A stretch of 8,038 bases of DNA. Source: Synergistaceae bacterium (GTDB lineage Bacteria > Synergistota > Synergistia > Synergistales > Aminobacteriaceae). This document shows positions 336-7,984 of the stretch, piece after piece (position 1 is the first letter of the stretch; every line of letters starts with the position of its first letter). The notes under the pieces are model-generated. The model searched no databases, was not told the DNA's origin, and saw nothing but the letters and a program-made list of their open reading frames with translations. Both the position numbers and the translations under genes were made by a program. The stretch spans positions 1-8,038 of the forward strand of contig JAFVEW010000233.1 in the NCBI GenBank assembly GCA_017475805.1. The letters are read 5' to 3'.

Positions 336-2768
336 TCAGACTACGAAATCGCGCCTTTCAAACGCTACAAGATCATCAAGACGTTCAAAGTCTAAACAAC
401 GTTTCTGAATGTCGTTTTTATAATCATCGAGAGAAAAATTTACGCTTCTCGCTTCTTCCCCCTCGATAAATGGGGGCGGACGAACTAAAAAAGCGAAATA
501 TGGACGCAAAAAGAAAGGCGCGCTGTTTGATATTTTCACCGTCAGAGCACCAACAGAACGTTCTCTCTCAAGCCTAACGAACCAAACAACAGAGTCTGCT
601 TCAAAATCAAAAATAACGTTTGTCTTAAAATAAAAAAGTTTTCTTACTACCTTAGCCGCGTCAAAAGTAAAAGTCTTGCCAACAACAAAACTGAAATCCC
701 TTTCTCTCTCAAAATCCCAAACAGAAAAACAATAAACCTTTATCCCCTTATAAAATTCTCCCTCACTTCTCCCCCTCATAATATAGGAAAAAGTAGTGCA
801 AATCGCTCTTAAAAGCACTGGTGATAAGTGTTTAAGTGCTTCGTTTTTCTCTTTAATTTTTTTGTTTTTTTCCGCTCTATCGTAAAACCATTTTCTGCGA
901 GAAATTCCTTCGTCTATCCAGGGCGCAAGACTCTCAATCGAAGGCTTTTTCGATTTTTTTTCTTTCTTGGGGAACGCTCGCAAGACTTCAAGATCAATCT
1001 GTTCTGTCGCTGTGATGCCTAATTGTTCGATAATAGTTTCAGTCTTCGCGTTATATAAAGGCTTGTCCTTGCTGATAAATCTTACTTTCAAGGAATTAAA
1101 CAGCTTTAAGTTCGTTTCACTTTGGAACTTAACGCCGTTCTTGTCGATTAATTTTTGAGTTAATGCGTCAAATTCGTCAACGTTTTTGACTAATCTTGCT
1201 TGAATGGCAAAGTTCATCGCCCAGAATACGCTTAATTCACGATGTCCCTGCGGTATTTCGCCGTTATGATCCGCCCTAAGCTCCATTAATTTCACGATGT
1301 CAGCGAAACGTTGAGCGGCCTGTCCTGTAAATGAGCCTGTCCGTTTTTTCGGCTTGATTTTGAAGGACGCAAGATTTTTAAGTGTGCGTTCAGCCTTAGC
1401 CTTAGCTTTTTCTTCGGCCTTTTTCTTTTTATATTCCCTGACTTCGTCTTGAGAGAAACGCAAAATTTTTGATGCTAAATCGTCAAATTTATATCTCGCG
1501 TTTAATTTCAAGATTTCGGCTTTTTTATTCGTAAATTCAGCGATCGGCAACAACGCTGAAACTTCTTGATATTCGAGGTTGTCCTTCGCTCCCCAGTCAG
1601 CGAAATGATAATTAATTATTTCTTGAGTTCTCTGCCAGCGTGATAGAGCTTTGCCCGGCAAATAATCAAAATATTTCCAAGCAACGACTAATTTTCCGTC
1701 GAGCAACATTAAAGCATTCGGCATCGGGATTCCTAAGCCATTCCAATATTCAGAGCAGCGTTTCAAGACGGTTATTGTTTTTTCTTTGAGATTCGAGCCG
1801 CGAATCTTTTCAGCTGACAAAACGGCATAGTTGCAGTAAATTCTCTCAACGGTGTTTACGTCCGGCTGTTCAAAATTACTTATCGAACGACTTAAGACAT
1901 GAGTTTTATCCTGACGCCTCAAAAAATCAGGAATTTCTGATTCTTTCACGAATTTTTCTTCGCCTGTCGTTTCGTTCTTAATTTTGAAATATGGCGAATC
2001 GCATAACGGCGGCGGAGTCGTTGCCGATTTTTTAGGCTTTGACACAAGAACAAGAGCTTCAACTTTCGCTTCTTTAACTGCGGGCTCGGCGACTTTGGGC
2101 TTCTCTGTCGTCTTGAACTCCACGTAAATTTCTTGAGAGTCATCATAGCCGGATAAATCAAAAATTTTTTTCGCAAAATCTTCAAAGGAGTAGCGTTCAG
2201 GATTTGAATAAACAACTCTAACGTCCCTGTCTTTAGTTTCGGGCTTGCAATTTTTCGTTCCCGGAACTCTTAAAACTCGCGCCGCGTCTTTTGCCTGAGC
2301 GTCTGCGCCTAAATCTTTGAAAATCAGCCAAAGTTTTCTCTGAAGCATAGTCCAGCGGTTTAATTTTTCCCGCGTGATTGCTTTTCTATAGAGCCATTTA
2401 ACGTGAAGCCCGTTGCCGCTGAAAACGATAATGCTCGGCATCGGAATTTCTTTCTCGCGGCAATATTCGATTATTAAATTCGACCATTCTTCGGGCGTTA
2501 AATCTTTTTGTTCCGTCGCAAATTTTCCGTCAATATCAAGGAAGCTGAGACTAAGTGAAGCAACATTGTCGACAGCTCTGCTACGGTGATCCATAAATTT
2601 CGCCTGCGAAACGTAAATATTTTTGCTGTCAAAATCTGACTCGAAGTAGAGATCGACCAATTTTCTCTCTAAATTTCTCGATTGAACGAAAAACTGCTTC
2701 CATGCTCCGTTTTTATTATTCTTGAAACATACGCAAACATAATGAGCGCTTGCTCTATGAATTTGCAA
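336..2768 (-). CDS. RepB'-like primase / replication protein with a duplicated, degenerate second primase domain
   Basis: Residues ~1-205 form an archaeo-eukaryotic primase-type domain like the RepB/MobA primases of mobilizable plasmids. It has a metal-binding FLDID (76-80), SGNGLHVKW (117-125, with His122) and ARVLRVPGTKN (163-173). Such proteins make primers for plasmid replication in the cytoplasm. Residues ~300-440 repeat the fold (PMPNALMLLDGKLVVAWKY at 348-366 aligns with PMPSIIVFSGNGLHVKWLY at 111-127), but LDID has become LSAE and the His is lost. A Lys/Ala/Glu-rich linker (447-466) follows, then a helical region and a possible helix-turn-helix around GISRRKWFYDRA (621-632). The last ~150 residues are Phe/Val/Arg-rich and look unlike a folded domain. 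The start given is a TTG with no clear Shine-Dalgarno site; the frame stays open upstream and the true start is probably near 2918. It lies downstream of a related 313-residue gene. The primase-family call is firm; the role as element replication protein is inferred. Confidence 0.82.
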   Translation of the reverse strand: MQIHRASAHYVCVCFKNNKNGAWKQFFVQSRNLERKLVDLYFESDFDSKNIYVSQAKFMDHRSRAVDNVASLSLSFLDIDGKFATEQKDLTPEEWSNLIIEYCREKEIPMPSIIVFSGNGLHVKWLYRKAITREKLNRWTMLQRKLWLIFKDLGADAQAKDAARVLRVPGTKNCKPETKDRDVRVVYSNPERYSFEDFAKKIFDLSGYDDSQEIYVEFKTTEKPKVAEPAVKEAKVEALVLVSKPKKSATTPPPLCDSPYFKIKNETTGEEKFVKESEIPDFLRRQDKTHVLSRSISNFEQPDVNTVERIYCNYAVLSAEKIRGSNLKEKTITVLKRCSEYWNGLGIPMPNALMLLDGKLVVAWKYFDYLPGKALSRWQRTQEIINYHFADWGAKDNLEYQEVSALLPIAEFTNKKAEILKLNARYKFDDLASKILRFSQDEVREYKKKKAEEKAKAKAERTLKNLASFKIKPKKRTGSFTGQAAQRFADIVKLMELRADHNGEIPQGHRELSVFWAMNFAIQARLVKNVDEFDALTQKLIDKNGVKFQSETNLKLFNSLKVRFISKDKPLYNAKTETIIEQLGITATEQIDLEVLRAFPKKEKKSKKPSIESLAPWIDEGISRRKWFYDRAEKNKKIKEKNEALKHLSPVLLRAICTTFSYIMRGRSEGEFYKGIKVYCFSVWDFERERDFSFVVGKTFTFDAAKVVRKLFYFKTNVIFDFEADSVVWFVRLERERSVGALTVKISNSAPFFLRPYFAFLVRPPPFIEGEEARSVNFSLDDYKNDIQKRCLDFERLDDLVAFERRDFVV
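458..476. repeat. GC-rich palindrome inside the primase 3' region
   Basis: CCCCC (458-462) and GGGGG (472-476) with a 9-nt AT-rich loop, in an otherwise AT-rich stretch. It looks like a dispersed intergenic palindrome rather than codons under protein selection, and it lies in the atypical C-terminal tail of the primase frame. Confidence 0.35.
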
Positions 2769-2945
2769 AACGTCTTGTTGAATCTGATTTAAGAACTCTC
2801 TATGTTTTTTTGTTTTCAGAGAATCGGCTTCGATTTCTTCTGATGTTGTTATTATTTCCGCCTTTATGCCGATTTCTTCAAGTTCTTCTAAAAAATCTAA
2901 AATTTTTGTCGTATTCGTGATATAATCTCCTCGATATAATCTTAT
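2769..2945 (-). other. Probable N-terminal extension of the primase, no canonical start
   Basis: The primase frame stays open for 59 codons above the TTG at 2768, back to a TAA at 2946-2948. The translation looks like protein (KILDFLEELEEIGIKAEI, then TTSEEIEADSLKTKKHREFL). Its first residues, RGDYIT, match the N-terminus of the neighbouring 313-residue paralogue (DGDYIT). There is no ATG, GTG or TTG in frame before 2768. A strong Shine-Dalgarno GAGGAG (2927-2932) sits 8 nt before an in-frame ACG (2916-2918), so either ACG is used as a start or the original start codon has been lost. Relative to the paralogue, the junction carries about 8 extra bases that remove the ATG. Confidence 0.6.
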
Positions 2946-3010
2946 TTAATCTTTTTAGATATCCGTTATTTTATCATAAATAACGGGAAAATTTTTTTAT
3001 TTAAGAAGGT
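2916..3010 (-). repeat. Gene-junction repeat, copy A
   Basis: Spans the last codons of the 313-residue gene, the stem-loop and the start region of the primase. Shared with copy B are a run of the form CTTC..TAAATAAAAAAA, GATAAAATAACGGA (GATAGAATAACGGA in B) and GATTATATCAC near the next gene's start. It implies that the adjoining genes arose by tandem duplication. Confidence 0.6.
2963..2986 (+). terminator. Stem-loop at the 313-residue gene/primase junction, possible plus-strand terminator
   Basis: Perfect 9-bp arms CCGTTATTT (2963-2971) and AAATAACGG (2978-2986) with a 6-nt loop. On the plus strand a T7 run follows after GAAAA. It covers the stop codon of the 313-residue gene. The minus-strand transcript has no T tract after the stem, so it would not terminate the operon. 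It is homologous to the stem at 3912-3939. Confidence 0.4.
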
Positions 3011-3907
3011 ATTTTCATTTACATGACTTGTCAATGAAAATTTTTCTTCAACTCTATTCCAGAAATTCAAAAATTCTTCGTTGTCTTTTTGAAATTCTTT
3101 TAACTTAGCTTGAAGGTCTGGACGCTTGATTGGCTTGTAGCGTTTAAGCCTGTCGCAAACGTATTCAAGACCTTTTTTAATTTCTTCGACTGTCGTTTTT
3201 TCTGCGATATGAAAAACTCTAACGGGTGCGTTCGCGTGAGTGTTAAACGTTCCCGGCACTCGCAACAATGTCAGCGCGTGTTTTTTCTGAGGATTCGCGC
3301 CGAGATATTCAAAGTCCTTATATAACAAGTCTTGAATATCGTTCCAGTCGAGATTGAAAGCAAATTCGTTAAAGACAATCCGCCCTCTGTTATTCTCGTA
3401 AGAATTTCGACCTTTCTTATACGGCACTTTTAACGGCCACACTACAGCTAATTCTTCATGGTCGCCCCAAATTAAAGGCTCAGATAAACCGCGCTGATGA
3501 CAATGTTCAAGAACAAGCTCGGCCATCTGTTCACCCGATAAATTAAAATCAAGATTAAGATTTTCAGCTTCGACAGCCTCGTACAAATCAAGAATTAAGA
3601 AATGACAAGGCATATACGAAATCCATTTTTCGCGCAAAACGGGCTTGTCGTCATCGTCTGTAATGCGCTTTGAAACTTCTGCGGCTGAAATCCAGTAATC
3701 TTTATCGGCGTCAATGGCATTCTTTACTTTTTCAAAATATAAGTCGTTCGTTTCTAACCAGTAAAAATTATTTTTTTTCTCATTCCTTCCCCTTTTACCG
3801 ATTATTTTTTCCTTGAAGTACACATACCTTGCGATGCTGTCGTGCCATTCATGAATTTTTTTTAGTTCGTCGACTGTGATATAATCACCATCAATTAATT
3901 TATACAT
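2966..3907 (-). CDS. Catalytically degenerate primase-family protein (paralogue of the downstream primase)
   Basis: This 313-residue protein aligns by eye along the primase domain of the next gene: KIHE/QIHR near the start, then HFLILDLYE (102-110) where the primase has SFLDID, WGDHEELAVVW (147-157) where it has FSGNGLHVKW, and ALTLLRVPGTFN (211-222) where it has ARVLRVPGTKN. The second metal-binding Asp is Tyr109, and the motif His is replaced by Ala, so primer synthesis by this copy is unlikely. The fold landmarks are kept. Residues 255-290 are a charged, helix-rich tail. The ATG at 3907 has a modest GGAA Shine-Dalgarno site. It follows the 45-residue ORF after one in-frame TAA and three codons, and precedes the large primase, so the three probably share an mRNA. 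A structural or regulatory partner of the active primase is the simplest guess. An independent DNA-binding role is also possible. Confidence 0.72.
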   Translation of the reverse strand: MYKLIDGDYITVDELKKIHEWHDSIARYVYFKEKIIGKRGRNEKKNNFYWLETNDLYFEKVKNAIDADKDYWISAAEVSKRITDDDDKPVLREKWISYMPCHFLILDLYEAVEAENLNLDFNLSGEQMAELVLEHCHQRGLSEPLIWGDHEELAVVWPLKVPYKKGRNSYENNRGRIVFNEFAFNLDWNDIQDLLYKDFEYLGANPQKKHALTLLRVPGTFNTHANAPVRVFHIAEKTTVEEIKKGLEYVCDRLKRYKPIKRPDLQAKLKEFQKDNEEFLNFWNRVEEKFSLTSHVNENTFLNKKIFPLFMIK

Positions 3908-3960
3908 TTGCTTCCGTTATTCTATCACAGGTAGCGGAGAATTTTTTTTATTAAGGGAAG
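3873..3960 (-). repeat. Gene-junction repeat, copy B
   Basis: Spans the last codons of the 45-residue ORF, the wobble-paired stem-loop and the first codons of the 313-residue gene. Homologous to copy A at both DNA level and encoded tail (LNKK...PL at both C-termini; GDYIT at both following N-termini). It is about 8 bases shorter than A between TAACGG and ATTATATCAC. Confidence 0.6.
3912..3939 (+). terminator. Homologous stem-loop at the small ORF/313-residue gene junction
   Basis: CCGTTAT (3914-3920) can pair with GTAGCGG (3931-3937) in plus-strand RNA using G-U pairs, extendable by two pairs, with T8 (3942-3949) downstream. In minus-strand RNA the changed positions would be C-A mismatches. 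The structure is therefore better kept in the antisense direction. Confidence 0.35.
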
Positions 3961-4054
3961 CGTCTTCAAATTGACAACGTGAAATTGAATCAGAATTTTT
4001 CGGTTCTTCGTTCTGATTTTTTTGTTCATATTCAAAATCATCAAATGTTGCCAA
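3917..4054 (-). CDS. Small 45-residue leader ORF ahead of the replication genes
   Basis: A TTG start at 4054 is preceded, 9 nt upstream, by a very strong Shine-Dalgarno GGGAGG (4064-4069). The product begins MATFDDFEYEQ and is acidic and hydrophilic, with no recognisable domain. An in-frame TTG at 4114 would give 65 residues but has a poorer ribosome site. The last residues, SLNKKNSPLPVIE, resemble the C-terminus of the next protein (FLNKKIFPLFMIK), and the DNA of the two gene ends is homologous. This ORF may therefore be the remnant 3' end of a further primase-like gene copy. It could also act as a translated leader coupling ribosomes into the 313-residue gene, whose ATG is 9 nt past the stop in the same frame. 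Function unknown. Confidence 0.5.
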   Translation of the reverse strand: MATFDDFEYEQKNQNEEPKNSDSISRCQFEDASLNKKNSPLPVIE

Positions 4055-4141
4055 TTTTTTACGCCTCCCTTCTAAGTTAATTTTTTTTTCCTTAGTTAGG
4101 TCTGGCAGGGGCAATATTTACAAAATAATTTGATTTATTCT

Positions 4142-4171: not shown

Positions 4172-4196
4172 ATTGCGTTAAAAATGTTAACGCAAT
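4172..4196. promoter_or_regulatory. Perfect palindrome, candidate operator for the XRE repressor
   Basis: ATTGCGTTAA (4172-4181) and TTAACGCAAT (4187-4196) with a 5-bp centre. It sits at the predicted start of the plus-strand RNA and within the spacer of a possible minus-strand promoter (TTGCGT at 4190-4195 and TATTTT at 4166-4171, 18-nt spacing). A repressor bound here could block both directions. XRE proteins bind such dyads; the pairing with the adjacent XRE gene is inferred. Confidence 0.5.
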
Positions 4197-4337: not shown

Positions 4338-4580
4338 CTACTGAACATTTTTACTGTCCTCGTTTTCTTCGTTTTCCGCTGTGGGATGCAGTAACTCAGT
4401 TTCAGTTACACCGAAAATTTCCGCCAACTCTATCAGACCATCAACAGTCGGCTTAATTTCTCCTTTTTCCCAACGTGATACGGTGGATTTATCAGCACCT
4501 ACAATGCTACCTAAACCAGCCATCGTAAGATTCATTCTCTTACGATTAAGTCTAATTCCATCTTTAAGTGTAAGTACCAA
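4338..4580 (-). CDS. XRE-family (Cro/C1-type) helix-turn-helix repressor
   Basis: An 80-residue single-domain DNA-binding protein. Residues ~5-65 carry the classic XRE fold: LTMAGLGSIVGADKSTVSRW (18-37) gives the helix-turn-helix, followed by EKGEIKPTVDGLIELAEIFG and an acidic tail. The start is a TTG at 4580, chosen because AGGTGG lies 6 nt before it. It has its own promoter (4626-4654). Directly downstream is a perfect 10-bp-arm palindrome placed among promoter-like sequences upstream of the replication genes, which makes this protein a good candidate for the element's copy-number or maintenance repressor. The family is certain; the operator assignment is inference. Confidence 0.9.
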   Translation of the reverse strand: MVLTLKDGIRLNRKRMNLTMAGLGSIVGADKSTVSRWEKGEIKPTVDGLIELAEIFGVTETELLHPTAENEENEDSKNVQ

Positions 4581-4672: not shown

Positions 4673-5251
4673 TCACAACATTTGATACATGAAAATACAT
4701 TCGCTATCGTAACGAGGCTTCAATCTTCTGTGAAGTTCGTCCTCGTGTTCAGCAGGAAGCCTCATGAAGCCATATCTGCCATACTGTCTTATAAGCCCCT
4801 CGAAAGGCAAGGCAAAAATATATAAAACTTCAACCCCTACACGGTCAGAAACATCCCTAACTATGGGTAGAATAAAATCATTGAAAATTAAAAGCCCTAA
4901 ACCTTTTGCATTCGGATTTTTATCGAGATAGTCTTTATTGACGGCAAAATTTGCAAGTTCTATTCCGGGCAAAGTGTCAAAATTTGCTATTTCATTTTCA
5001 TTGCTTTCGTTAAATGAAATTAGTCCGGCTTTTAATGAAAAATACCCCGTAAGTTCTGAAGAATTGTTAGCCCTGACTAAATACGTGCGCATCCGCTTAT
5101 GGGCTTCATCTTCAAATGCAAAATTTTTTATGTAGTTCAAAAGTCCTGAGCCTCGAACATCTTTAATGGAAAAATTTTCTATATCGTGAGCATCATTTAC
5201 GGAAGCTCCAAGATGTTCGCAGTAAAACGCGCTATTTCTGAGCAAAGGCAT
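4673..5251 (-). CDS. GNAT-family N-acetyltransferase, possible toxin
   Basis: 192 residues with a GNAT-like layout. A central strand region, TGYFSLKAGLISF (68-80), is followed by LPGIELANFAV (94-104), an acetyl-CoA pyrophosphate-loop-like segment NPNAKGLGLLIFND (112-125), and a C-terminal YGRYGFMRL (157-165) matching the usual Tyr...Gly-Phe end of GNAT domains. GNAT enzymes transfer acetyl from acetyl-CoA to amines; on plasmids and mobile islands some acetylate charged aminoacyl-tRNA and act as toxins paired with a small antitoxin. Here the ATG lies inside the last codons of the 60-residue upstream ORF (20-bp overlap), the tight coupling expected of such a pair. The AT-rich spacer before the ATG contains only a weak Shine-Dalgarno site, which fits translation by coupling. 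Toxin function is inferred from arrangement, and the substrate is unknown; an ordinary accessory acetyltransferase remains possible. Confidence 0.7.
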   Translation of the reverse strand: MPLLRNSAFYCEHLGASVNDAHDIENFSIKDVRGSGLLNYIKNFAFEDEAHKRMRTYLVRANNSSELTGYFSLKAGLISFNESNENEIANFDTLPGIELANFAVNKDYLDKNPNAKGLGLLIFNDFILPIVRDVSDRVGVEVLYIFALPFEGLIRQYGRYGFMRLPAEHEDELHRRLKPRYDSECIFMYQML

Positions 5252-5414
5252 TTTTTTGTTCCCGGGCTTTCATTATTCTTTCCATTATTCGCGCACTTTC
5301 AGCTCTAAGTTCAGTATGGTCTGCCGGAGGAGTGTTGCGTATTTGTTCAAATTCCTCACGAGTAAAACTCGTTGTGCTGCGCCGTCCGTATCTGCGGCTG
5401 TCAATTACGCTCAT
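5232..5414 (-). CDS. Small protein overlapping the GNAT gene, candidate antitoxin
   Basis: 60 residues, beginning MSVIDSRRYGRRSTTSFT and continuing with a charged helical stretch, HTELRAESARIMERIMKARE (33-52). The ATG at 5414 has a GAGGT Shine-Dalgarno 6 nt upstream. Its stop falls 20 bp inside the following GNAT gene. A disordered Arg/Ser-rich N-terminus plus an amphipathic helix is compatible with an antitoxin that wraps a partner, but I recognise no named antitoxin family: it lacks a clear ribbon-helix-helix or helix-turn-helix. It begins 49 bp after the traG stop, with TATAAT-like hexamers in that gap but no convincing -35, so it may be read from the traG transcript or a weak local promoter. 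Confidence 0.6.
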   Translation of the reverse strand: MSVIDSRRYGRRSTTSFTREEFEQIRNTPPADHTELRAESARIMERIMKAREQKNAFAQK

Positions 5415-5463: not shown

Positions 5464-7365
5464 TTACGCCGCCTTTTGTTCAATGACATCGCTTTTTTCC
5501 GGCGCGTCAATTTTCGAGCGTTCAGAAAAAATCTTGTCGAGGAAATATAAAATCTGTTTGCCGTAAATCGGTGGAAATCCTGCCGAAAAAATTAACATGT
5601 CGCCCGGCTCTACAATATTTTGATTTACGTCCTTAACAGGTCCGGGAAGTCTCATAATTTCATCTGGCGTTAAGACAGCCCGCTGAACTTCCTGCTGGGA
5701 TTTAGTTACGCTCTTTTTTGCGAAAATTCCAGTTCCGCCCTGAAACGAAATACTTTCCTGCTCTTTGATTACCGTTGTTACGCCTAATCGGTCTGAAAGA
5801 TATTTTGCCGTATCGACCTTGTTCGGCGCATAAGCTATTGTTACATGACAGTTTGAAGTTATCGATTCGTCCTTTCCATAAGCCGCGTCAAGTTGTGCTT
5901 TATCCTGACAGATTAAATAAGCCTTAATGTTCCAGCCTCCGAAATAAGCTATTGCTTGTTCAAAAATTCCTAACTTTCCTAACGCCGGGAACTCGTCAAG
6001 CAACAATAAAAGCCTATGTTTATAAGGGGCTTTCATCTGTCCGCCCTTAAATTCCATTTCAGGCATTAGAATAAAAATTAACTGAGAAATGAAAAGTCGG
6101 ACTAATGGCTTCAATCGCTGAATATTTGTCGGATTCAAAACGAGATACAGCGACACGGGCGAATCGTTGTCCATAATATCTTGAATACGAAAATCGCTCA
6201 TTGACGTATTTCTCGCAACGACAGGGTCAGTGTAGAGTCCTAATTTAGCTACAGCTGTCGATAAAACTGACGAGGCTTCCTCTTCAGCGCGATTCAACAT
6301 TTCATTAGCTACTTGTTCAACGACAGGATGACAGGGACTTTCGCGAACTTTACCAGTAGGGTCGTAAAAAATATCGCCATCTCGTTTATGTTCGTACTGT
6401 TTCCATGAATTAGCCATGTCTTCGTAGCCGTTGCCTGTGAGTTCGTGCAGGACTTCGGATAAATTTCCTGTCCGGCCTTCGTTCCGCGCCTTATAAGTTA
6501 CATGAGTTATTGCGCCTATCAGCAAAGACCGCGCTGTCTGCTCCCAATGTCCTTCTACGCCTTTGCCGTCAGGGTCAACTAACAGGGTCGCAACATTCAT
6601 AACATCGCCCGTTTCGTAAACCGTTCCGATTCTGATTTCAGCGAGCGGATTATATCGTGCGCTTCTGCCTTCTATTGCGTCAGTCGGGTCCCAACGTAAA
6701 ACCTTATGGCCATTTTGATGTCTCCAGCCCGAAGTCAAAGCCCAATTTTCTGATTTTATGTCGAGAACTACCACCGAATGTTCCCAAGATAAAAGCGTTG
6801 GAATTACTAAGCCTACTCCTTTTCCTGAACGTGTCGGAGCAAAGGCTATTACGTGTTCTTTTCCGTTATGCCGAAGATAATACTGTTGACCGTCTTTCGG
6901 ATTTATCCAGCCGCCGACATAAACGCCTTTGCCTTTTTCACCTTTTGGTGGCAAAAGTCCAGCTTCACGGATTTCATCAAGTTCGGCATACTGAGCCGAC
7001 CCGTAAAGATTCGCCGCGTCCTGTTTTACGTTGCGGTTTCGGATAGTTACAGCGATTAACGAAACTCCCATAAACGCACAACCGCCCATAACGATTAAAG
7101 TTTCCGTAAAGTCTTTCATGTCGCGGTGAGTTTTCTTCCATAATTTTAGCCACTCTAAAATTTCTATTGGCGAATAAATTTTTATTCCGGCGTAGCTAAA
7201 AATTTCATTAGGGAGCCTGTTTTGACCTACGTTCCAAGCAAAATATTGAGTACCTGCAAAAAACGAAAGAAAAATTAAAATCAGCCCTATAACCGCAGGA
7301 GCTTTTGAAATTTTTTGTTTTGAGGCTTTTCTGAATGAATAATTGCCTTTTATTGTCGTCTTCAT
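5464..7365 (-). CDS. traG: TraG/VirD4-type conjugative coupling protein (T4CP ATPase)
   Basis: 633 residues, close to the ~635 of IncP TraG. Two membrane helices lie near the N-terminus (about 23-44 and 88-108) with a short periplasmic loop. The cytoplasmic NTPase follows: YGSAQYAE (121-128), Walker A APTRSGKGVG (176-185), VLDIKSENW (200-208), Walker B LLLLLDEFPALG (452-463), and a conserved Gln in LICQDKAQL (484-492). Coupling proteins form hexamers at the inner membrane that pass the relaxase-DNA complex to a type IV secretion channel. The ATG at 7365 has AGGAGG 10 nt upstream and lies 2 nt after the stop of the KfrB-like ORF, so the two are probably co-translated. No secretion-channel genes are in the window. 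The gene is intact and the assignment is secure; TraG is used here as a family name. Confidence 0.96.
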   Translation of the reverse strand: MKTTIKGNYSFRKASKQKISKAPAVIGLILIFLSFFAGTQYFAWNVGQNRLPNEIFSYAGIKIYSPIEILEWLKLWKKTHRDMKDFTETLIVMGGCAFMGVSLIAVTIRNRNVKQDAANLYGSAQYAELDEIREAGLLPPKGEKGKGVYVGGWINPKDGQQYYLRHNGKEHVIAFAPTRSGKGVGLVIPTLLSWEHSVVVLDIKSENWALTSGWRHQNGHKVLRWDPTDAIEGRSARYNPLAEIRIGTVYETGDVMNVATLLVDPDGKGVEGHWEQTARSLLIGAITHVTYKARNEGRTGNLSEVLHELTGNGYEDMANSWKQYEHKRDGDIFYDPTGKVRESPCHPVVEQVANEMLNRAEEEASSVLSTAVAKLGLYTDPVVARNTSMSDFRIQDIMDNDSPVSLYLVLNPTNIQRLKPLVRLFISQLIFILMPEMEFKGGQMKAPYKHRLLLLLDEFPALGKLGIFEQAIAYFGGWNIKAYLICQDKAQLDAAYGKDESITSNCHVTIAYAPNKVDTAKYLSDRLGVTTVIKEQESISFQGGTGIFAKKSVTKSQQEVQRAVLTPDEIMRLPGPVKDVNQNIVEPGDMLIFSAGFPPIYGKQILYFLDKIFSERSKIDAPEKSDVIEQKAA

Positions 7366-7925: not shown

Positions 7926-7958
7926 TATTTACATTTATCGTAAAAAAATCTCAATTTT

Positions 7959-7984
7959 ATTACTACATTTATTACTACAAAATC
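7959..7984. repeat. Right copy of the long-range direct repeat
   Basis: The two internal half-repeats are identical here: ATTACTACA, then TTT, then ATTACTACA. It is the partner of 79-104. Together the two copies bracket all genes seen in the window, which is what attL/attR or paired recombinase sites would do, but no integrase is visible to support this. Confidence 0.5.

Follow-up and report, generated by a model that had tools for sequence, protein, structure and literature searches.

The window analysed here is a stretch of 8,038 nucleotides from a Synergistaceae bacterium (GenBank assembly GCA_017475805.1, contig JAFVEW010000233.1), in which two open reading frames (ORFs) encode replication proteins of 313 and 810 amino acids (aa). 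The relevant genes of the window all lie on the minus strand. The 810-aa ORF almost certainly joins an intact module of the archaeo-eukaryotic primase (AEP) fold, M2, to a catalytically dead one, M3, and the 313-aa ORF carries another dead module, M1, a level of confidence that covers the architecture and the inactivity alike. The initial annotation had claimed three copies of a primase-type fold in these two ORFs, and the motifs that it quoted are present on the minus strand, with profile comparison, structure models and solved structures in support. Coordinates are collected in Table 1.

Primase fold and catalytic residues of the modules

The Pfam model RepB_primase (PF16793) matches M2 above its gathering cut-off (26.2 against 24.3 bits), and it matches 20 of the 31 family members at E<=0.01. 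M1 and M3 gave no Pfam or NCBIfam match above cut-off, a few falling below it at E 0.05-0.5, and among the PHROG matches none under E 0.2 concerned either of them. Their relationship to M2 emerges when module alignments cut from the 31-row family alignment are compared profile against profile (hhalign): M1-M2 scored 99.6%, M2-M3 98.6% and M1-M3 97.5%, and M0, a further module carried by some relatives, scored 99.7% with M2. Reversed M0, M1 and M3 profiles reached 0.12-0.38% against M2, and the unrelated helical domain that follows the modules (CT) reached 0.07-0.56% against any of them, so that the likeness of the three copies, as read from sequence profiles, is greater than chance. The same relationship is visible in the window proteins themselves. 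The M3 profile, which holds no M2 rows, matches M2 at residues 26-204 (E 8e-16), and the M2 profile matches residues 187-247 of the 313-aa protein (E 4e-9) and residues 326-423 in M3 (E 5e-8); the match between M3 and the 313-aa protein is weak (E 9e-4). With the 313-aa protein as query, tblastn recovered 168 records of RepB-type plasmid replication proteins at E<=0.01; the query was covered to at least 80% in 155 of them, and the best among the matches listed had E 6e-8.

Structure prediction points the same way. The AlphaFold model of M1 has a mean predicted local distance difference test score (pLDDT) of 85.8 and a predicted template modelling score (pTM) of 0.84, and solved AEP structures match the models of both M1 and M2, the best for both being the AEP domain of cyanophage S-2L PrimPol (6zp9). 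The blocks of M3 are modelled at pLDDT 81-96, with strands and helices in the same order as in M2. The primase fold is thereby supported for the 313-aa protein, by model and comparison with the Protein Data Bank (PDB), and for the second domain of the 810-aa protein, by profile comparison and the order of its modelled elements. A Foldseek search of viral models with M1 returned phage primase-helicases and 'Replication protein B', which agrees with the fold and adds no function. Sequence searches of PDB chains gave nothing for the 810-aa or the 313-aa protein singly, and with profile A3 weak matches only, the best being the Rep protein 3vw4 (E 0.0012).

The catalytic AEP (Prim-Pol) signature comprises motif I (hhhDhD/E), motif II (sxH) and motif III (hD/E) (PMC10345425; this and the other papers cited by PMC number are drawn on in excerpt). 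Residues were counted with rows gapped at a place left out, the motif II place in M1, M3 and M0 being the residue three before the conserved Trp, and the M0 places being taken from the profile alignment. M2 has Asp, Asp, His and Asp in 31/31 rows (in the window DID at residues 78-80, H122 and D161) and thus carries the AEP catalytic motifs. In M1 the first Asp of motif I occurs in 0/24 rows and the second in 13/25, the His in 0/26 and the motif III Asp in 0/27, while an Arg is kept in 22/27. M3 has Asp in 0/31 rows at both motif I places, with one Glu at each, and His in 0/31; its motif III place holds 2 Asp and 15 Glu among 30. The seven M0 rows have no Asp at either motif I place (0/7) and no His (0/7), and the motif III Asp in 4/7. 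No row of M1, M3 or M0 has the full set, and tabulation of the aligned homologues thus bears out the expectation that none would have it at the M1 or M3 positions.

The losses of a metal-binding Asp and of the His that had been reported for both extra copies are real, except that the Asp lost from M1 is the first and not the second: the profile alignment sets FLILDL of M1 against FLDIDG, so that the first Asp is gone and the second often kept. As signs of inactivity the two losses carry different weight. RepB'-family primases have Gln at the place of the motif II His (PMC5862659), which makes a missing His weak evidence, whereas changing DID to LIL in PolpTN2 abolished both of its activities (PMC5862659), which makes the missing metal-binding acids strong evidence.

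Relatives, age and selection

Profile scans of a genome collection and a viral collection with alignment A2 found 23 and 19 loci, ten of them close (L004-L013); scanned with the window protein alone, the same collections yielded no relative. A2 holds the window protein and 30 of 39 homologous proteins, the short or partial P0004, P0005 and P0034-P0036 and the weak P0037-P0040 having been left out. The 810-aa protein has 35 close homologues, and 26 of these (P0006-P0031, 967-1,369 aa) have all or part of M1 ahead of M2 in one chain; 8/10 close loci (L004-L008, L010, L012 and L013) encode M1-M2-M3-CT in a single ORF. The L006 contig ends inside CT and those of L009 and L011 begin within the gene; the remaining order is the same. 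M0 precedes M1 in L010, L012 and L013 and is present in 7/31 alignment rows. The separate pseudo-primase partner of the initial annotation is therefore a local state of the window, as the relatives have it fused N-terminally to the active module, and its count of two extra copies is right for the window while some relatives have a fourth module, dead as well.

Three single-module Reps, namely RepA of pHH2-227 (L001), the pXAS27 replication protein (L002) and an unannotated ORF in a phage-collection record (L003), encode M2 followed by CT with nothing between, in ORFs of 464-592 codons. Most simply, M1, M3 and M0 would be additions to an M2-CT core, though M3-CT may instead be the older unit and M2 the copy. 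Matches at E<=0.001 occur in 9/185 genomes of the phylum, four of which carry an ORF for M1-M2-M3-CT and one, G054, an ORF for M2-M3, so the distribution looks narrow. Close homologues that bear organism names (P0004, P0008 and P0041) come from metagenome-assembled genomes (MAGs) of Synergistaceae, and the host is probably a gut bacterium of this family.

Some individual loci are recorded here for their own sake. Another genome of the phylum has a 437-codon ORF with M2 and M3 only, without CT (L066, 1306-2616). Multi-module primases also lie in two goat-gut MAGs labelled Treponema (L004, L005 and L006), which may reflect mis-binned contigs or transfer between phyla. Five contigs of the Synergistaceae MAG G005 (L009, L010, L011, L012 and L064) hold partial or whole genes of this type, so a single host may harbour several distinct elements of this sort.

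A tree built from 67 module sequences gathers each module into a clade of its own (support 99/98 for M1, 100/100 for M3, 89/91 for M2 and 90/60 for M0), and M1, M2 and M3 show the identical three sub-groups of rows. Judged by these sequences, the duplications therefore probably predate the diversification of the family. A grouping of M0, M1 and M3 against M2 and the single-module Reps (99/93) was not used to argue for a single inactivation, because shared loss of active-site residues and long branches can create it.

Ratios of nonsynonymous to synonymous substitution (dN/dS) were taken from six pairs, of which L004-L005 and L011-L013 are informative, L004-L006 is a near-duplicate and three are saturated at silent sites. 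Between L004 and L005 they are 0.12 for M1 (bootstrap range 0.06-0.20), 0.10 for M2 (0.05-0.16), 0.10 for M3 (0.04-0.19) and 0.08 for CT (0.04-0.13), against 0.64 for the tail (0.35-1.09); between L011 and L013, 0.13 for M1 (74 codons), 0.08 for M2, 0.11 for M3, 0.05 for CT and 0.61 for the tail. Mean identities are 0.41 for M1, 0.46 for M3 and 0.36 for M0, compared with 0.51, 0.51 and 0.48 for M2 in the same pairs. By this comparative evidence the dead modules are of long standing and purifying selection acts on them, and very likely they are functionally retained, as the first description had put it in suggesting template binding, regulation or assembly; selection bears out that word. Being kept intact by selection despite their lost catalytic residues suggests that the dead copies have a job of their own.

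Neighbouring genes and DNA motifs

Table 1. Features of the window, in window positions; residue numbers are those of the encoded protein.
Feature	Position	Strand	Remarks
TraG/VirD4-type coupling protein	5464-7365	-	PF02534, 381.7 bits; NCBIfam conjugal TraG model NF010453, 687.4 bits (cut-off 586)
60-aa ORF	5232-5414	-	overlaps 192-aa ORF
192-aa ORF	4673-5251	-	overlaps 60-aa ORF
XRE-type repressor	4338-4580	-	PF01381; upstream of primase gene
Leader, N terminus of the gene	3917-4054	-	TTG start; 3917-4114 as a short gene; homologous to N termini of P0041 and P0046; a stop divides it from M1
Palindromic repeat, copy A	3876-3955	-	at leader/M1 break; stop inside
313-aa ORF (M1 protein)	2966-3907	-	ATG start
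M1, catalytically dead AEP module	3137-3871	-	residues 13-257 of the 313-aa protein; profile 350 bits
28-residue helix after M1	3029-3112	-	residues 266-293; AlphaFold model
Palindromic repeat, copy B	2917-3005	-	at M1/M2 break; stop inside; hairpin CCGTTATT...AATAACGG at 2963-2986
810-aa ORF (M2-M3-CT-tail)	336-2768	-	TTG start
M2, active AEP/RepB'-type primase module	2157-2762	-	residues 3-204; PF16793; own profile 330 bits; model and PDB matches
M2-M3 linker	1998-2156	-	mostly low confidence; block pLDDT 31-57, residues 211-260
M3, second AEP-fold module, without motif I acids and His	1446-1994	-	residues 259-441; own profile 268 bits
28-residue helix after M3	1368-1451	-	residues 440-467; model; placed as the 28-aa linker helix is in RepB'
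CT, helical domain	861-1343	-	residues 476-636; common to single-module Reps L001-L003
TATATTATGAGGGGG DNA motif	771-785	-	shortly past CT; repeated in relatives at the same place, not in one reading frame
C-terminal tail	339-830	-	pLDDT <50 from residue 647; weak protein constraint in relatives

The coupling protein scores above the NCBIfam cut-off, and on this evidence the window is probably part of a conjugative element. On a Synergistaceae MAG contig (L013) a multi-module primase occurs alongside a TraG with 92% identity over 631 residues. Searches of the window against Rfam found no family, PADLOC gave no hit, and comparison with a plasmid collection found no near DNA match. The 28-base direct repeat with 89% identity that lies close to both window ends (75-102 and 7955-7982) could be an attachment site, an iteron or a common non-coding element. 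Between the XRE gene and the primase leader a perfect inverted repeat, TTGCGTTAA/TTAACGCAA, was seen by eye at 4173-4195 and is a candidate operator.

The overlapping 60-aa and 192-aa ORFs have a layout that resembles a toxin-antitoxin pair. At E<=0.001 a search with the 192-aa protein finds 686 homologues; the protein has neither a Pfam match above cut-off nor a PADLOC hit. Its homologue P0061 and the primase P0002 are both on contigs of 20,011 bases, and P0068 and the primase P0045 both on contigs of 9,811, so linkage of this gene to the primase is perhaps conserved. Other neighbours of multi-module primases are a D5-type (superfamily 3) helicase gene about 1.1 kb upstream in L012 (5644-7887), an MmeI-type restriction-modification gene in L010 (4563-7343) and, in L008, DUF2800, an Enc34-type single-stranded DNA-binding protein and a family A DNA polymerase, so that the primase there sits within a phage-like replication cluster.

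Shortly past CT the sequence YATATTATGA recurs in 8/10 close loci and in the window, with G-rich or GCGC runs next to it in most (L004 3927, L005 4393, L008 4984, L009 1922, L010 4161, L011 2431, L012 12712 and L013 13462). It is absent from L006, where the contig ends inside CT, and L007 has a variant. The motif is read in different frames and the surrounding tail is under little protein constraint; its appearance is that of a site acting as DNA, which may be an origin or a place of nicking or priming.

Possible roles of the dead modules and comparison with known systems

The window protein is best explained as an initiation primase belonging to a conjugative or plasmid-like element. M2 would synthesize the primer and CT would serve as a helix-bundle-type domain that places the first nucleotides, in the manner of the pRN1 primase, whose helix-bundle domain prepares them (PMC11009956). 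The dead modules would be nucleic-acid readers or clamps, holding the template and a possibly structured initiation site for M2. M3, whose place immediately ahead of the 28-residue helix and CT is that of the catalytic domain in RepB', would be CT's partner in anchoring the template; M1 would provide another anchor, and since it could act from its own chain, its splitting off would be tolerated. In RepB' the catalytic and helix-bundle domains bind ssiA independently (PMC4434180), so a dead catalytic domain could still read DNA specifically. In SCCmec, priming by the unrelated CCPol-MP primase depends on a partner that lacks the polymerase active site (PMC7581432). By analogy with these systems, binding of the template or initiation site is tentatively favoured as the main job of the dead modules, with a confidence that falls somewhat below even. 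A bolder version, in which one active module sits in a fixed array of two or three dead ones that jointly read a multi-part initiation site and measure the primer, is possible though less than probable. If it were true, template specificity and primer counting, which elsewhere fall to unrelated subunits (PriL, PriX, helix bundles), would be done by pseudo-primase copies.

Several observations weigh against this picture. The PDB matches listed for the 810-aa model fell on M2, so that the fold of M3 is supported by profile and model. The Arg mostly kept by M1 is lost in M3, which has Pro there in 30/30 rows. Only two codon pairs are informative, the others being saturated or near-duplicate, and, pair for pair, median conservation is 9 points lower for M1 and 6 for M3 than for M2. 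An ssi-like site was not identified, and the mean net charge is -1.8 for M1 (-5 in the window) and -10.0 for M0, against +0.6 for M2, +1.6 for M3 and +6.4 for CT. With M1 near neutral to acidic and M0 acidic, a scaffold role follows close behind.

Could the dead modules then work without touching DNA, as protein-protein scaffolds that bring in a helicase or link the primase with the replisome? The charges would suit such a role, as would a separate-chain M1, which fits a docking subunit. DNA polymerase epsilon provides a precedent. In yeast the inactivated half of its catalytic chain is in contact with the CMG helicase and, unlike the active half, is essential (PMC7544198); Mcm2 and Mcm5 are among its contacts (PMC12593628). 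The primase protein itself has no helicase domain, and helicase genes do occur nearby, the D5-type gene of L012 and, farther off, an SNF2-type helicase-like gene in L013. However, no partner protein was identified in the window, and a replicative-type helicase lay beside the primase in one of six sampled loci (17 neighbour proteins scanned). The scaffold is thus a real contender, if a doubtful one.

A different question is whether the window gene is itself sound. The fused gene of the relatives is interrupted twice in the window by a palindromic repeat, both copies of which contain AATAACGG and GATTATATCAC. The equivalent insertion, by eye, is read in frame in P0046 and P0047 and absent from P0041 and P0044. 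GATTATATCAC occurs three times in 604 kb (the window and L001-L045), with 0.29 expected for equal base frequencies, two of the sites being the repeat copies of the window and the third lying near the break in the disrupted M0 of L008 (1610-1936). The repeat is read as a recurrent insertion that splits the gene, possibly a small element able to insert within coding sequence. Among 183 genomes of other species the perfect hairpin pattern and copy A were found in none and copy B in three, with matches of 22 to 35 bases; hairpin stability is not unusual (z -0.98 and -1.37).

These interruptions open the possibility that the window holds a damaged allele, its ORFs being remnants or poorly expressed. 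Stops lie inside both repeat copies, and M0 is broken in L008. By eye the leader starts at a TTG preceded by GGAGG; the 810-aa ORF has no ATG, and neither its TTG nor an in-frame CTG at 2819, at the place of the first Met of the homologue P0002, is preceded by a visible ribosome-binding site. Yet both ORFs are otherwise open across full modules, and P0002 (828 aa, on a 20,011-base contig) and P0003 (832 aa, on a 15,049-base contig) also begin at M2, so the split form may recur beyond the window; the homologue search returned no M1 protein from 20,011- or 15,049-base contigs. Damage is on balance unlikely, and it would concern the window allele and not the family.

Two further accounts fare much worse. 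That M1, M3 and M0 are still enzymes with another chemistry, such as nucleotide binding or transfer or the use of other metal ligands, draws on the acids left in part of the rows and on the Arg of M1, but both motif I acids never occur together outside M2 and the replacements vary within each module, unlike a new active site, which makes it highly improbable. Least probable of all is that the copies are passive, drifting leftovers of a tandem duplication: M0 is infrequent, and broken in L008, and all three modules are less conserved than M2, but M1 and M3 have dN/dS near 0.1 in both informative pairs and the M1-M2-M3-CT order stands in all close loci whose ORF is not cut before M1.

Among the closest known systems is RepB' of RSF1010 (3h20, 3h25), which shares the AEP catalytic fold and the RepB_primase model and in which, as here, the fold is followed by a helix of 28 residues, then a flexible stretch and then a helical domain (PMC4434180). 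The window protein is nonetheless unlike it, as had been supposed from the start: RepB' has one catalytic module with Gln in motif II (PMC5862659), and here there are two to three dead modules besides an M2 that keeps its His in every row. The RepB' family as delimited by Kazlauskas et al. 2018 is also marked by a PriCT-1 domain behind the primase domain and by origin-specific priming at ssi hairpins; in the window protein a helical CT is predicted after the primase modules, and no PriCT model matched it. The single-module Reps share the M2 and CT profiles, in that order and in one ORF, but lack M1 and M3; the window protein has M3 in between these two domains. Cyanophage S-2L PrimPol, for all its similarity in fold, has a single AEP domain in its structure (6zp9).

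The AEP primases of mobile elements are well described, with domain organisations set out by Kazlauskas et al. 2018 (PMC5862659); in the available text of that paper no tandem or inactivated AEP module is described and the terms 'inactivated', 'tandem' and 'duplicat' do not occur, and the excerpts of PMC6563490 and PMC11071308 describe no inactivated primase domains. A survey of open-access literature, mostly as listings, found no record of tandem or dead primase modules, although an earlier mention is possible. Archaeal PriS/PriL/PriX likewise combine a catalytic AEP with non-catalytic partners, but PriX and the C-terminal part of PriL are helix-bundle domains and not dead AEP copies (PMC5862659, PMC11009956). 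Polymerase epsilon works on a like principle, its chain pairing an active with an inactivated version of a single polymerase fold (PMC7544198); it belongs to an unrelated polymerase family and is eukaryotic, whereas here a primase has two or three dead copies. Dead polymerase copies are known to organise eukaryotic replisomes, and tandem dead primase modules would, by the literature surveyed, be new. The family makes non-catalytic roles of a primase fold testable, among them template choice, start-site selection, primer length and helicase contact.

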